A stretch of 64,000 nucleotides of DNA from a virus, in IMG/VR virus record IMGVR_UViG_3300030085_002231, positions 27,450-91,449 of that record. The stretch is one strand, 5' to 3'. Positions 5,899 to 44,888 of the stretch are shown here, piece after piece; the first letter of the stretch is position 1; each line of letters begins with the position of its first letter. The translations under genes were made by a program, and so were the position numbers. Below the pieces are notes generated by a model. It saw only the letters and a program-made list of their open reading frames with translations. It had not been told where the DNA came from and searched no databases.

Positions 5899-7229
5899 AT
5901 GCAAGACGTAATTTCTTACGACAAGTTGATGGAAAAATGGGCACCGGTACTGAACGAAGAGTCAGCGGGAGCCATTACCGACAACCACAGGAAAGCAGTT
6001 ACAGCTGCTATTCTTGAGAACCAAGAGCGGGCATTACGTGAAGAGCAAACTATGCTCAATGAAATGCCTACTAATAACACATCACAAGTAGCAAACTGGA
6101 ACCCAGTTCTGATTGCTCTTGTACGTCGTGCTATGCCTAACCTCATGGCATACGACATTTGCGGTGTTCAGCCAATGTCTGGTCCAACAGGCCTTATCTT
6201 TACGATGAAGCACTATTTAACGAAGCAGTGCCAGGATTCTCCGGTGATTCATCATCCGGTCCAGTTGCTGGTACAACTCAAAATCGTCTAGACGGTGTAA
6301 CTGCTGGCCCATCAGGCTTGTCAGGAATCGTTGACTCAGACGCCGACTCTACAATTGATGATACTCGTATCGATCCGGCAAACGGAACAACAGGTTTCGC
6401 CATGCCATTGTCCGACGGTGAAAACCTCGGTACAACTGGTGATTCACCATTTGCAGAAATGGGCTTTACCATCGAGAAATCAACTGTTAGTGCTCGGACA
6501 CGTGCACTGAAGGCAGAATACAGCCTCGAACTTGCTCAGGATCTGAAAGCCATTCATGGCCTGGATGCTGAGACTGAGTTGGCAAACATCTTGTCAACTG
6601 AGATCATGGCTGAAATCAACCGTGAAGTTGTTCGTACAATTAACTCACAAGCTAAGACTGGTGCTCTGCAAACTAACACTGCACTAAACGGTGTCTTCAA
6701 CGTCCAAACAGACGCAGACGGCCGTTGGTCAGTCGAGAAGTTTAAAGGTCTGATCGTACAGATTGAGCGTGAGTGTAACGTAATCGCAAAAGAAACACGT
6801 CGGGGTAAAGGTAACTTCATCATCTGTTCATCAGATGTTGCATCTTCCTTGTCAGCCTCTGGCATGCTCGATTACACACCTGCAATGTCAACAAACTTGA
6901 ATGTTGACGATACAGGAAACACCTTTGCTGGTGTCCTTAACGGTCGCACACGGGTCTACATCGATCCGTATGCTGTAGCTGACTATATCACAGTCGGTTA
7001 TAAGGGTACTAACCCATATGACGCAGGTCTCTTCTATTGCCCATACGTACCACTAACAATGGTTCGTGCAGTGGGTGAGGATACCTTCCAGCCGAAGATT
7101 GGATTTAAGACTCGCTATGGCTTGGCTTCAAACCCATTCGTTGGATCATCTCCAGCAGACGGCTTGGCTGCGATCAAGACCAACCAATACTATCGTATCT
7201 TCCGCGTAGACGATATTCTTGGATCATAA
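5899..7229 (+). CDS. 23: Major capsid protein gp23, split by a frameshift near 6204-6210
   Basis: The two halves of gp23 lie in different frames. The first frame (5899 to about 6210) encodes MQDVISYDKLMEKWAPVL through AYDICGVQPMSGPTGLIFTMK. The second (from about 6204 to 7229) resumes with DEALFNEAVPGFSG and continues through FAEMGFTIEKSTVSARTRALKAEYSLELAQDLKAIHG to NQYYRIFRVDDILGS. In relatives, LIFAM(R/K) is followed by roughly ten residues before the EALFNEA patch; here they are missing, and the junction lies on gatgaag, which can be read on both sides. That fits a lost segment of 3n+1 bases, from a real deletion or an assembly or sequencing error. Otherwise the protein is full length (about 450 residues) and forms the capsid hexamers. 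Confidence 0.9.
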
Positions 7230-36329: not shown

Positions 36330-36481
36330 AACTTATACCTGTCTTTTAAGTCAGAACATTTTTCTTCTAGTCTCGTAGGTTTATAAGGAACGTCAAATCT
36401 ATCAACTACCTCATAGGCATAACCAGCAAAAACTAGTAAACCTATGAGATAAGTTAATGCTATAAAGAAAAGATAAATCAT
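36302..36481 (-). CDS. Small membrane protein, reverse-strand operon gene 2
   Basis: A 59-residue protein starting with one membrane helix (MIYLFFIALTYLIGLLVFAG), then a soluble part with two cysteines (EEKCSDLKDRYKLCYMRF). The start at 36481 overlaps the stop of gene 1 by 4 bases (ATGA on the - strand). Function unknown. Confidence 0.5.
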   Translation of the reverse strand: MIYLFFIALTYLIGLLVFAGYAYEVVDRFDVPYKPTRLEEKCSDLKDRYKLCYMRFSSK

Positions 36482-36957
36482 ACTGCACCAGATACTGCGA
36501 ACCAAATGGCAAATATACCAAATATCAAAGCACCAATTACAATAGCACCTATCTTTATTTGTTCCCATACTTCTTCTTGTTCTTTTCTTTTTGCTATGGC
36601 TGCTAATCTTCGAGCTTCTTTTTCTTCTTGTATTCTTTTAGCTCTTAAATCTAGTATGCTTTGCCACGTACCAGGACCAAAGCGCATGTCTACTAGAGTT
36701 CTCATTTCTTGTAGTTTTTCTTCAGCCAGTTTGGCATCTATTACTTCTTGGGCTACGTTATTGATACCAAACTGATCTTTTACACTAACGCCTGATTTTT
36801 TGTTTCTTTGTTTTTGGCAATCTTCAGCACCTTGGAACAATCCATCGATTGCCCCAGCGATTTCTCCAATGTCTTTTGCAGTATCGATATTCGACTTAAT
36901 AAAATCAACACTTGACTTTACCAATGCTATGCCGGCTAAAACTTCTGCGACGACCAT
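36478..36957 (-). CDS. Membrane-anchored hypothetical protein, reverse-strand operon gene 1
   Basis: A 159-residue protein with VAEVLAGIALVKSSVDFIKSN at the N-end, a glutamate/arginine-rich helix (AKRIQEEKEARRLAAIAKRKEQEE) and a C-terminal membrane helix (IKIGAIVIGALIFGIFAIWFAV). Similar proteins occur in marine T4-like phages, function unknown. It is the first gene of a three-gene reverse operon served by a reverse late promoter (37029-37036); ribosome site aggtagatcgaa. Confidence 0.65.
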   Translation of the reverse strand: MVVAEVLAGIALVKSSVDFIKSNIDTAKDIGEIAGAIDGLFQGAEDCQKQRNKKSGVSVKDQFGINNVAQEVIDAKLAEEKLQEMRTLVDMRFGPGTWQSILDLRAKRIQEEKEARRLAAIAKRKEQEEVWEQIKIGAIVIGALIFGIFAIWFAVSGAV

Positions 36958-37028: not shown

Positions 37029-37036
37029 TATTTATA
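37029..37036 (-). promoter_or_regulatory. Late promoter (TATAAATA) for the reverse-strand operon
   Basis: The + strand reads tatttata, which is TATAAATA on the - strand. It is 72 bases upstream of the reverse gene starting at 36957 and directly back-to-back with the forward promoter of the tmRNA. Confidence 0.6.
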
Positions 37037-37065
37037 TTTACATTCAACACTACTTGTGGTATAAT
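37037..37065 (+). promoter_or_regulatory. Sigma70-type promoter for tmRNA
   Basis: TTTACA at 37037-37042, 17 bp, TATAAT at 37060-37065 in the form TTGTGGTATAAT. Predicted start near 37072, a few bases before the acceptor part of the tmRNA. Confidence 0.8.
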
Positions 37066-37072
37066 ATAAATA
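37065..37072 (+). promoter_or_regulatory. Late promoter (TATAAATA) overlapping the tmRNA promoter
   Basis: A perfect TATAAATA that begins on the last base of the TATAAT box. The tmRNA could thus be made both early (host sigma) and late (gp55), with starts only about 7 bases apart. Confidence 0.55.
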
Positions 37073-37079
37073 TAATTGA

Positions 37080-37340
37080 AGATGCTAGAAGGTAGACTGG
37101 ACTCGGGGGCGGTACCCGACGCCTCCACCAATATTCACCGACCGGTGCATGCTTATGGGGGCGAAATAGGATCGACAGATGCTGGAGTCTTCGAGAAGTA
37201 AATGCAAACGATAACGTTGCACAACCTAAGTTTATGAAGAAGCGTAACACCTTCGCTCGTAAAGTTGGGTTTACTAAAGGTATGGCCTTAGCTGCCTAGT
37301 CCTTACGGGCCCGCCGGAGCCTGGGAACAGAATCCGGCAC
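37080..37340 (+). ncRNA. ssrA: Phage-encoded permuted two-piece tmRNA (ssrA)
   Basis: The gap between divergent genes folds as a circularly permuted tmRNA. The acceptor piece ends with a T-arm-like stem (tcggg 37103-37107 / cccga 37115-37119, 7-base loop) followed exactly by cgcctcc (37120-37126) and ACCA (37127-37130). A 26-base spacer with a cacc/ggtg hairpin follows. The coding piece starts GGGGGCG (37157-37163), which pairs with cgcctcc in a 7-bp acceptor stem, then has the tmRNA-type D-loop text aggatcgacag. The resume codon is GCA at 37204. tmRNA rescues stalled ribosomes and tags the product for degradation. The T-loop lacks the usual TTC sequence. Exact ends are approximate. Confidence 0.88.
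37204..37299 (+). other. tmRNA tag reading frame (31 aa)
   Basis: From the GCA resume codon the frame reads ANDNVAQPKF, continues through a basic middle, and ends KGMALAA before TAG at 37297. ANDN at the start and ALAA at the end are the hallmarks of alphaproteobacterial proteolysis tags. At 31 residues it is far longer than the usual 10-15, and the middle (about residues 9-25) is strongly basic. Confidence 0.85.
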
Positions 37341-37349
37341 ACATTTTTT
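37313..37349 (+). terminator. 3' hairpin and T-run of tmRNA transcript
   Basis: Stem gccgga (37313-37318) / tccggc (37333-37338) with CCC (37310-37312) able to pair with GGG in the loop (37323-37325), a possible pseudoknot, followed by six T. It probably serves as both a tmRNA structure and a terminator. Confidence 0.7.
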
Positions 37350-37363
37350 GATTGGAAAACATA

Positions 37364-37747
37364 ATGCAAAAATTTACTAGAGACTTGATAATAGCATTCA
37401 CATTTGGAATCGCAGTAATAATAGGTTCTAACCTAGCATTTTCACAGCCAAAGGAAGGTATCGAATGGCGAACAAAGCCGGTACAGTGCGGACCTGAAAA
37501 AGAATTTTGGCCAGTGTTAAATCAACACGGTGAAAAAGCTTTGCTTGGAGCAATCACAAAACTAGAAGCTCCTGGTGAACCTACAACTTATATGCCAATT
37601 TACGTATTCACAAATACGGATACAGGAACTTTCACTATAGCAGAGTTTCATTTACATTCGAATGAAGTATGCATTATAGGCTATGGCAGTGGTATTGATT
37701 TTGATGTACAAGATCTTTTCGAAAATAGACAATCTACTGGAACTTAG
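37364..37747 (+). CDS. Exported hypothetical protein
   Basis: A 127-residue protein with a signal peptide: KFTRDLIIAFTFGIAVIIG then cleavage probably after NLAFS. The mature part has VQCGPEKEFWPVLNQHGEKALL, IYVFTNTDTGTFTIAEF and NEVCIIGYGSG, giving two cysteines for one disulfide. Not recognised. The ATG at 37364 has only a weak ribosome site, and the gene lies just after the tmRNA terminator, so its promoter is unclear. Confidence 0.6.
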   Translation: MQKFTRDLIIAFTFGIAVIIGSNLAFSQPKEGIEWRTKPVQCGPEKEFWPVLNQHGEKALLGAITKLEAPGEPTTYMPIYVFTNTDTGTFTIAEFHLHSNEVCIIGYGSGIDFDVQDLFENRQSTGT

Positions 37748-42953: not shown

Positions 42954-43458
42954 TTATTTTGAAAAAGAATGGAAACCAAACTATGATTCAAAAAGTTATT
43001 CAGGATGGAAATTAATCGATAAAGTAAAAAGCAACGAAACTATATTAGATATTGGTTGTGGATATAATTTATTTAAAGAACATTTTTCTAAAAACTTATA
43101 TGGCATAGATCCTGCTAATGATGCTGCAGATGAAAGAGTTAGTATTGAAGAGTTTAATAGTGCAGGCAACCAATGGGATGTTATATTTTGCTTAGGTAGT
43201 TTGAATTTTGGAGATGAATCTGTGGTTAAGCCACAAGTTGAAAAAGCAGTATCATTATGTAAAAGTGGTGGTAGAATATATTGGAGACAGAATCCTGGAT
43301 TAGGTGATCACCCGTGGAAAGGTGTTGAGGAAATTAAGTTTTTCCCATGGTCAGAAGAATTGAACTATCAGTGGTCTAAGGAGTTTGATTGCCGAGTTGT
43401 CTTTATGGATTGGGAACCAAAGGGCAATAGATTATATGCAGAATGGGTTAAGAATTGA
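42928..43458 (+). CDS. SAM-dependent methyltransferase (class I)
   Basis: A 176-residue protein with a Rossmann-type methyltransferase core: ETILDIGCGYNLFKEHF (motif I), LYGIDPANDAADERVSIEEF (motif II), WDVIFCLGSLNFGD (motif IV) and AVSLCKSGGRIYWRQNPG. The substrate is unknown; it may methylate a small molecule or sugar in the island's pathway. Overlaps neighbours by 26 and 4 bases. Confidence 0.82.
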   Translation: MGQKKTLNNYFEKEWKPNYDSKSYSGWKLIDKVKSNETILDIGCGYNLFKEHFSKNLYGIDPANDAADERVSIEEFNSAGNQWDVIFCLGSLNFGDESVVKPQVEKAVSLCKSGGRIYWRQNPGLGDHPWKGVEEIKFFPWSEELNYQWSKEFDCRVVFMDWEPKGNRLYAEWVKN

Positions 43459-44888
43459 GTGAACTATACGCTTTATTAGGCGGAACACTTTATGGATTAA
43501 TGATTGGTATCATACCTAGTGCAGGTGCTACGACAGGTCTGATTGCACTATTTGGTTTTATATCATACTTCTTAAGTGATCCCTATCTAGGTGTCATATT
43601 TTGCATGGCAGTAGTCGCAGCTAGTACTACCGGTGATACTTACGCAGGTGTGTTGTTAGGTATACCAGGTGCAAATAGTGCGGCCGCAACTATGGTCGAT
43701 GGCTTTCCACTAGCCAAGCAAGGCAAAGCAACATACGCAATCACTGCAGCAGTTACAACTAGTACCATCAATGGAATAATATGGGGCACACTAACTTTTG
43801 CTTTGCTGCCTTGGTATAGTAAACTCATAATGATATTAGGCATACCTGAACTATGGGCTTTTACCATGCTTGCTCTGGCTACCGTTGCTTTTGTATCAGG
43901 TAAATGGTGGTTTAGAAGTTTTATAGCAATCGGTCTAGGAATATTTCTTGGATTAGTTGGCACAGATCCAGAAACAAATGCTGATAGATACACACTTGGG
44001 TGGGAATATTTAGGTGACGGAATACAAATAATGGCTGTGGCCGCAGGACTCTTTGCATTACCTGAGTTAATCTTAGGTCTACAAAGAATGCAAACATCGA
44101 ATAAAAGTATTAATGAATTAAGACAAACAATCGATGGTCTGAAAGCTGTTTGGCAAAATAAATGGGATTCTTTGCGCGGTGGATTTATAGGAGCATTTAT
44201 AGGACTACTGCCTGGCCTCGGTGGAGGAGCTGCAGATTGGATTTCTTATAGTGCAACTGTAGCAGCAAATCCTAAGGAAGATTTTGGTGATGGAAATATC
44301 AAAGGCGTAGTTGGACCGGAAGGTGCGAACAATGCACAGAAAGCTACGTCTATGATACCAACAGTTTTGTTCGGTATTCCAGGCGCAAAGTATGCTGCAG
44401 TTATTATGGCGCTTTTTTCTTACTTAGGTTTTGAACTAGGAACTATGGATTTAGTGAATGATACTAAGTTCTTTGATAGTTTGACTTATGGATTTATGTG
44501 GGCTACAGTTATTGTGGGTATATTCTGCTTATTATTCACACGCTATATCAGCGCAATTACTAGAGTACCTTATAAGTATTATTTCCCAATAATATTTTTG
44601 TTTATCGTGTGGGCCTGTACAAGATACACCGGTGGCTGGGAAGACTACGTCATGTTAAGTATATTTACAATAGTTGGACTTATAGCAAAGATATATAAAT
44701 TTAGTAGGCCAGGTATGATAATCGGTTTCATACTTGCAGATAGAATAGAAGGTTTAACGTTGCAAATAAATGCACTGTATACGATTGAATCACTATTAAC
44801 AAGACCAATATTTTTAACTATAGTTATTGGGGCACTAATAGCTTTTATAATAGGTATAAGATCTAAAAGGAAATTGAATTATGCGTAA
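43455..44888 (+). CDS. tctA: TctA-family tripartite tricarboxylate transporter permease
   Basis: A 477-residue integral membrane protein of the TctA family, the large channel subunit of binding-protein-dependent carboxylate importers. It is an inverted duplication with matching motifs GIIPSAGATTGLIALFGF (near residue 18) and GLLPGLGGGAADWISY (near 253), and the TctA patches GDTYAGVLLGIPGANSAAATMVDGFPLAKQGK and GPEGANNAQKATSMIPTVLFGIPG are recognisable in part. About ten to twelve membrane helices. TTG start overlapping the previous stop. No small TctB subunit is seen. Confidence 0.88.
   Translation: MSELYALLGGTLYGLMIGIIPSAGATTGLIALFGFISYFLSDPYLGVIFCMAVVAASTTGDTYAGVLLGIPGANSAAATMVDGFPLAKQGKATYAITAAVTTSTINGIIWGTLTFALLPWYSKLIMILGIPELWAFTMLALATVAFVSGKWWFRSFIAIGLGIFLGLVGTDPETNADRYTLGWEYLGDGIQIMAVAAGLFALPELILGLQRMQTSNKSINELRQTIDGLKAVWQNKWDSLRGGFIGAFIGLLPGLGGGAADWISYSATVAANPKEDFGDGNIKGVVGPEGANNAQKATSMIPTVLFGIPGAKYAAVIMALFSYLGFELGTMDLVNDTKFFDSLTYGFMWATVIVGIFCLLFTRYISAITRVPYKYYFPIIFLFIVWACTRYTGGWEDYVMLSIFTIVGLIAKIYKFSRPGMIIGFILADRIEGLTLQINALYTIESLLTRPIFLTIVIGALIAFIIGIRSKRKLNYA

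Follow-up and report, generated by a model that had tools for sequence, protein, structure and literature searches.

The stretch of DNA analysed here (hereafter the window) comprises 64,000 nucleotides and corresponds to positions 27,450-91,449 of IMG/VR record IMGVR_UViG_3300030085_002231, a fragment of 91,449 bases. The record is that of a T4-like phage, with a match to gp23 (E 5e-119) as well as UvsX and DNA polymerase B. Its gene for the gp23 capsid protein is broken into two frames (G000:33537-34657, approximately 6088-7208 of the window), probably through an assembly or sequencing frameshift. The DnaB-like helicase of the record is closest to that of Kyanoviridae phage C48C1 (68% identical), and the order of the genes around it is similar in both phages. 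The window also harbors a gene for a TctA tripartite tricarboxylate transporter component (43455-44888; PF01970, E 4e-91); the next gene, at 44881, encodes a protein that resembles the binding protein of a transporter and has no Pfam or PHROG match. The element described below is flanked by two genes (36478-36957 on the minus strand and 37352-37747) whose products had no match in searches of Pfam and PHROG. The upstream, divergent one encodes a 159-aa protein without family, and a protein of similar type lies upstream of the tmRNA of a sibling locus (L021), which indicates that the genomic context is partly conserved.

Between these two genes, the covariance model RF01849 (alpha_tmRNA) matches positions 37033-37341 over its full length with 95.9 bits (E 7e-25, cut-off 50), and RF04321 (tmRNA_permuted) matches over its full model length with 77.7 bits (E 4e-13, cut-off 47). 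An initial annotation had proposed a phage-encoded circularly permuted tmRNA at this place and had predicted that a covariance-model search would detect it, and both propositions are borne out by these matches. ARAGORN, when run on the window, missed the gene, an aspect absent from that annotation, as was the loss of pseudoknot PK1 discussed below.

The layout of the gene is permuted, with the T-arm and CCA strand upstream and the acceptor 5′ strand and tag downstream, all on the plus strand. The acceptor piece, which forms the 3′ piece of the mature tmRNA, spans 37078-37130, as delimited by the RF01849 and RF04321 alignments and by covariation across 56 distinct relatives. It comprises the 5′ strand of helix H2 (GAAGAT, 37078-37083), a GGAC (37099-37102), the T-arm (37103-37119) and the acceptor strand CGCCTCC (37120-37126) followed by ACCA (37127-37130), the CCA thus being encoded in the gene. 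A 26-nt intervening segment (37131-37156), presumably excised, contains a short hairpin and no ORF. The start of the coding piece (37157-37203), delimited by the alignments, covariation and a comparison of spacings, holds the acceptor strand GGGGGCG (37157-37163), the D-arm to GGATCGAC (37169-37176), the 3′ strand of H2 (GTCTTC, 37187-37192) and an A-rich leader of 11 nt, GAGAAGTAAAT, that replaces PK1 between H2 and the resume codon GCA at 37204. The tag frame runs from this codon to a TAG (37204-37299) and encodes ANDNVAQPKFMKKRNTFARKVGFTKGMALAA, a tag also present in relatives. Further downstream lies a PK2-like H-type pseudoknot (37306-37338), which virtually every relative can also form; its first stem pairs CGGGC (37306-37310) with GCCTG (37319-37323), and its second stem, GCCGGA (37313-37318) with TCCGGC (37333-37338), encloses a conserved AACAGAA. 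The positions of CGCCTCC-ACCA (37120-37130), of GGGGGCG and of the 26-nt spacer, together with the 31-residue frame ending in TAG at 37297-37299, are as initially annotated. The T-loop, in turn, had been called noncanonical; its sequence, GGGGGCGGTACCC, is the one that RF01849 gives as consensus for alphaproteobacteria.

Covariation argues strongly for this structure. In 56 distinct sequences, all six pairs of H2 are 100% paired and show compensatory changes; pairing is kept in 98-100% of sequences throughout H2, the T-stem and the D-stem and in 95-100% for the acceptor pairs, with up to four pair types at a single T-stem position and up to three in the acceptor. The stems of the downstream pseudoknot change yet stay complementary across essentially all relatives, and G3-U70, the alanine identity pair, is present in all 369 tmRNA occurrences including that of the window (a count that is not deduplicated). 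The failure of ARAGORN is the only observation that would favor reading the T-arm/CCA and acceptor halves as unrelated repeats pairing by chance, and ANDN..ALAA as a chance ORF. This explanation is refuted by the RF01849 match at E 7e-25, by the covariation and by the recurrence of the gene in related phages, among them the isolates HTVC008M, Melnitz and Mosig, and we assign it a negligible probability. The sequence evidence supports the identification of the element as a phage-encoded circularly permuted tmRNA of the alpha type, presumably two-piece, with a 31-aa tag.

Two promoter-like motifs precede the gene, in agreement, at the level of motifs, with the early and late promoters initially proposed. 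An extended -10 sigma70-like motif, TGGTATAAT (37057-37065, plus strand), recurs upstream of many relatives and overlaps a box resembling T4 late promoters, TATAAATA (37065-37072, plus strand), which ends approximately 6 nt before the 5′ strand of H2. The octamer by itself occurs 10 times in the window against 7.5 expected, which is no enrichment, so its use as a window-wide late promoter was rejected and only its position in relatives counts. The exact octamer lies upstream of H2 in 21 of 60 distinct sequences, and an AT-rich T4-late-like box at near-constant distance from H2 is found in 59 of the 60 when progressively looser patterns are admitted, the position of the late-like box thus being conserved in the class without PK1.

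Phage two-piece tmRNAs are already known from Melnitz and Mosig, and the general kind of gene found in the window is therefore not new. The study that described the Melnitz tmRNA counted 53 predicted two-piece structures among phage genomes, of which 50 are aquatic (PMC9004378), and 79 unique phage tmRNAs have been listed (PMC11915505). Our analysis verified that HTVC008M, Mosig, Melnitz and several roseo- and rhizophages have permuted tmRNAs. Like the window, Melnitz (a Methylophilales phage) and the Pelagibacter phages Mosig and HTVC008M are T4-like (Kyanoviridae) and carry a permuted alpha-like tmRNA. The roseophages DSS3P8, V10, RcXuper, MD18 and DSS3_MAL1 also carry a tmRNA of this type. 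The permuted tmRNA is unannotated in the V10, RcXuper and DSS3P8 records (L002, L003, L004), and a GOLLD RNA precedes it by a few hundred bases in V10 and DSS3P8. Searches for SmpB found none in Melnitz, HTVC008M and the roseophages (Mosig was outside this search), nor in the window's record and 27 related records, and host SmpB would thus be needed. A permuted tmRNA was sought in C48C1, the closest named relative, and none was found; likewise, no glutamine riboswitch such as that of Melnitz reaches the gathering score in the window. With the bacterial alpha_tmRNA/tmRNA_permuted genes of Alphaproteobacteria (e.g. Caulobacter), the window tmRNA shares the permuted order, the T-arm and acceptor sequence, the GGATCGAC D-arm, H2, the GCA resume codon, the ANDN...ALAA tag and the downstream pseudoknot. 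It differs from them in having no PK1, a tag of 31 aa instead of the 11-13 of the bacteria sampled and a phage late-promoter-like box upstream. The measured tmRNAs of Melnitz, Mosig, HTVC008M and the roseophages also differ from that of the window, with spacings of 55-69 nt, which leave room for PK1 (the Mosig spacing was read only by eye), and tags of 10-14 aa.

The absence of PK1 follows from spacing. In the window, GGATCGAC and the resume codon are 27 nt apart, against 61-68 nt in the bacterial alpha tmRNAs measured, and only 11 nt separate H2 from the resume codon. In viral tmRNAs, this spacing falls into two main groups, of 26-29 and 55-69 nt, with a few cases at 37, 42 and 94. A search pattern for the short spacing, GGATCGAC-N(10-26)-AAATGCAAACGA, retrieved 108 stretches from more than 100 virus contigs and only four from 84,980 bacterial and archaeal genomes, none of the four containing a tmRNA according to cmscan. 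Within one phylum, 32 of 399 genomes contain a closely similar pair of words at a spacing of 40-70 nt, in many cases at alpha_tmRNA loci, and the search words therefore work in bacteria. In a FastTree phylogeny of 242 tmRNA cores, the 57 leaves without PK1 fall inside a clade of 64, all of them phage (SH-like support 0.91); the alignment extends over some of the shortened stretch, and the tree therefore depends in part on the PK1 trait. The window tmRNA belongs to a phage-only clade that lacks PK1 and is known so far only from marine T4-like phages. A blastn search of named phages with a PK1-less relative, L131, gave no match; that with L021 returned mostly T-arm/acceptor pieces of other phages and chance matches in Staphylococcus phages. 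At a further PK1-less locus, a manA RNA (RF01745) lies directly 3′ of the tmRNA (L137:5624-5830).

Bacterial two-piece tmRNAs "typically" carry PK1 before and PK2 after the tag (PMC3985003), and of these two pseudoknots only the PK2-like one is present here; since both are only typically present, the absence of one marks a variant and does not exclude the gene from the class. In E. coli tmRNA, single-stranded RNA in the place of PK1 still gives efficient tagging, and some chimeric tmRNAs are sensitive to PK1 and to what precedes the resume codon (PMC4236655). The lost pseudoknot and the long tag could also be taken as decay of a host ssrA copy carried by chance and devoid of function, and the covariance-model score of 96 bits, compared to roughly 200-318 bits in most bacterial alpha tmRNAs, points in that direction. 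Decay is nonetheless hard to reconcile with compensatory changes in every helix, with the same architecture in more than 100 contigs, with a tmRNA and tag that remain nearly unchanged beside a diverged gene, with the conserved position of the promoter and with a tag reading frame that is open throughout, and we consider it very improbable.

The 31-residue tag starts at a GCA resume codon, reads ANDN...ALAA with a hydrophobic LAA end and closes with the TAG at 37297-37299. Its length had been singled out as unusual, and the comparison upholds this: of the 106 distinct viral tag/spacing types, 99 or 100 have a tag of 9-17 aa, and all 20 bacterial types have one of 11-13 aa, though longer phage tags, of 24, 29 and 30 aa, occur alongside that of 31. 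Every one of the 106 viral types has AA at the end of its tag, and most relatives have ordinary tags of 13-14 aa, including L021 with 14. The 31-aa tag recurs in L026, L077 and L124 and, with a single M to T change, in L125, which come from separate IMG samples; a tblastn search for it in phages returned nothing at E 10. Comparison of the window with L026, L124 and L125 shows one variable site among 63 (1.6%) in the tag insert, against 53 of 257 (20.6%) in the neighboring ORF (p 5e-5). Third codon positions are changed at 0 of 32 in the tag versus 33 of 85 in the neighboring ORF (p 4e-6), although the five long-tag sequences are close relatives and the 0/32 figure represents few independent lineages. 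The RNA coding for the tag is predicted to form a hairpin (37223-37271, plus strand; 7 bp plus an inner stem), folding better than dinucleotide shuffles (p 0.007) and than recodings of the same peptide that follow phage codon usage (p 0.001), and this predicted hairpin may account for the conservation of third positions. We propose that the long tag is a stable, selected trait of the sub-lineage to which the window belongs, with a coding RNA that folds into a hairpin as well. Long tags of another family, ANDNALSNVTFVDFSAPVTAVNEDFALAA and ANDNASNVYSFVDFGSLKNTYVNEDFALAA (29-30 aa), occur in L020 and eight further loci of the viral scans and in L329 and L330, in tmRNAs that keep the PK1-length spacing.

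These properties of the tag lend some weight to a different reading of its function, in which the RNA is expressed and enters ribosomes but its long, basic, structured tag has ceased to act chiefly as a degradation signal and gives the product another fate, or the RNA competes with host tmRNA and alters host proteolysis. The lack of any third-codon change across 31 residues, the greater stability of the coding RNA relative to recoded versions and the unrelated long tags of 24, 29 and 30 aa in other marine phage tmRNAs are all compatible with it. Set against them, the tag retains the ANDN start as well as the ALAA end, which is the ClpX signal, the tags of most relatives have an ordinary length of 13-14 aa, and third-position conservation may derive from the RNA hairpin rather than from the peptide. 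On balance we view an altered fate as unlikely, at perhaps one chance in five.

The window and its sibling L124 are 99% identical in the tmRNA parts compared, and the spacer between the two halves of the gene is 26 nt in the window but 137 nt, with a 38-codon ORF, in L124. The spacer of L208 is 91% identical to that of L124, whereas their tmRNA parts are only 88% identical, and L213 and L162 have identical tmRNA parts with spacers of 151 nt, in which an ORF begins, and 24 nt. Judging from these comparisons, spacers are exchanged independently of the tmRNA. Virus scans unbiased with respect to the spacer yielded 139 distinct spacers, 73 of them of at least 100 nt. Bacterial spacers, in a sample biased to high-scoring tmRNAs, have a median of 38 nt, with 1 of 39 reaching 100 nt and none of the 39 containing an ORF of 20 aa. 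In 23 of 51 non-redundant viral spacers, the ORF is longer than in 95% of dinucleotide shuffles, where 2-3 would be expected. Small protein genes, often complete, lie or start inside the spacers of L127, L171, L206, L169, L188, L193, L124, L208, L338, L365, L339, L364, L384 and L407. The ORF-bearing loci tested with cmscan give permuted-tmRNA matches, most of which span the full model across the ORF; at L407 the tmRNA_permuted match covers the downstream half only, and the locus rests on alpha_tmRNA (54 bits).

Several families of these nested ORFs are under purifying coding selection. A given family is found again in the spacers of different tmRNAs, and its members differ far more at synonymous than at nonsynonymous sites, as in L127 and L171, where 33 of 42 synonymous and 8 of 162 nonsynonymous sites are changed (p 2e-22). 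In 13 of 14 other ORF pairs, some of which share a sequence, pN/pS is 0.08-0.46 (p at most 0.023); the L384/L394 pair is identical and hence uninformative on selection. HNH/homing endonucleases are nested in the spacers of L384 (phrog_2255, E 2e-25) and L407 (phrog_655, E 2e-11), and one nested protein resembles DUF2061 membrane proteins just below the Pfam cut-off. Tblastn with the nested proteins of L127 and L193 found no phage relative, and in a set of 14 records phrog_16066 turned up in the nested copies only. The spacer of Melnitz contains, after a GGAG, the start of an ORF (MFKWLSKTRL...) that continues into the tmRNA; the record annotates the tmRNA there and no CDS within. The tmRNA genes with group I introns (PMC11915505) similarly have a protein gene, sometimes for a homing endonuclease, in the part that is removed, but in the phage relatives the gene, usually of approximately 30-75 aa, lies in the spacer between permuted halves. 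For permuted spacers, only a tRNA-Ala and a repeat are mentioned as contents (PMC11915505), and a search of open-access PMC texts, which gives weak evidence, found no report of protein genes there. The marine-phage spacer might be a gene slot, where small genes, sometimes HNH endonucleases, are swapped and the spacer RNA removed in tmRNA maturation, or its precursor, acts as mRNA, the window representing an empty slot and its sibling L124 a filled one. We hold this reading at about even odds; under it, HNH endonucleases may have carried the small genes in.

Taken as a whole, we favor, with a probability of roughly 0.85, a functional phage-encoded permuted tmRNA of the alpha type, comprising a scheme of processing, rescue, tagging and spacer exchange that we infer from sequence. 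Transcription would probably be driven by the host-type promoter and, in a further round, by the phage late promoter. The RNase P and tRNase Z of the host would excise the 26-nt spacer, leaving two pieces joined by the acceptor and H2 helices, and host AlaRS would charge the tmRNA with alanine via G3-U70. Delivered to stalled ribosomes by host SmpB, with the short A-rich single strand presumably sufficing in the place of PK1, as in E. coli tmRNA mutants, the RNA would have the ribosome read ANDNVAQ...MALAA and stop at TAG, freeing the ribosome and handing the tagged product, through its C-terminal LAA signal, to host ClpXP for degradation. In related phages, the spacer gene slot would be filled, emptied or exchanged with the tmRNA halves undisturbed, and its ORFs could be translated.

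Phage tmRNAs appear in genome listings and have hardly been studied, and such genes are overlooked by annotation, as illustrated by the blank ARAGORN result in the window, the three roseophage records unannotated at this place and the Melnitz record without a CDS inside its tmRNA. Relative to known phage tmRNAs, the variant without PK1 and with a stable long tag is new. The large phage-only clade without PK1 constitutes a natural experiment on the need for individual parts of tmRNA, and it bears on why T4-like phages keep a ribosome-rescue RNA without SmpB. If true, protein genes in the spacer would be an unusual arrangement, in which one primary transcript gives rise to a two-piece RNA and possibly an mRNA.
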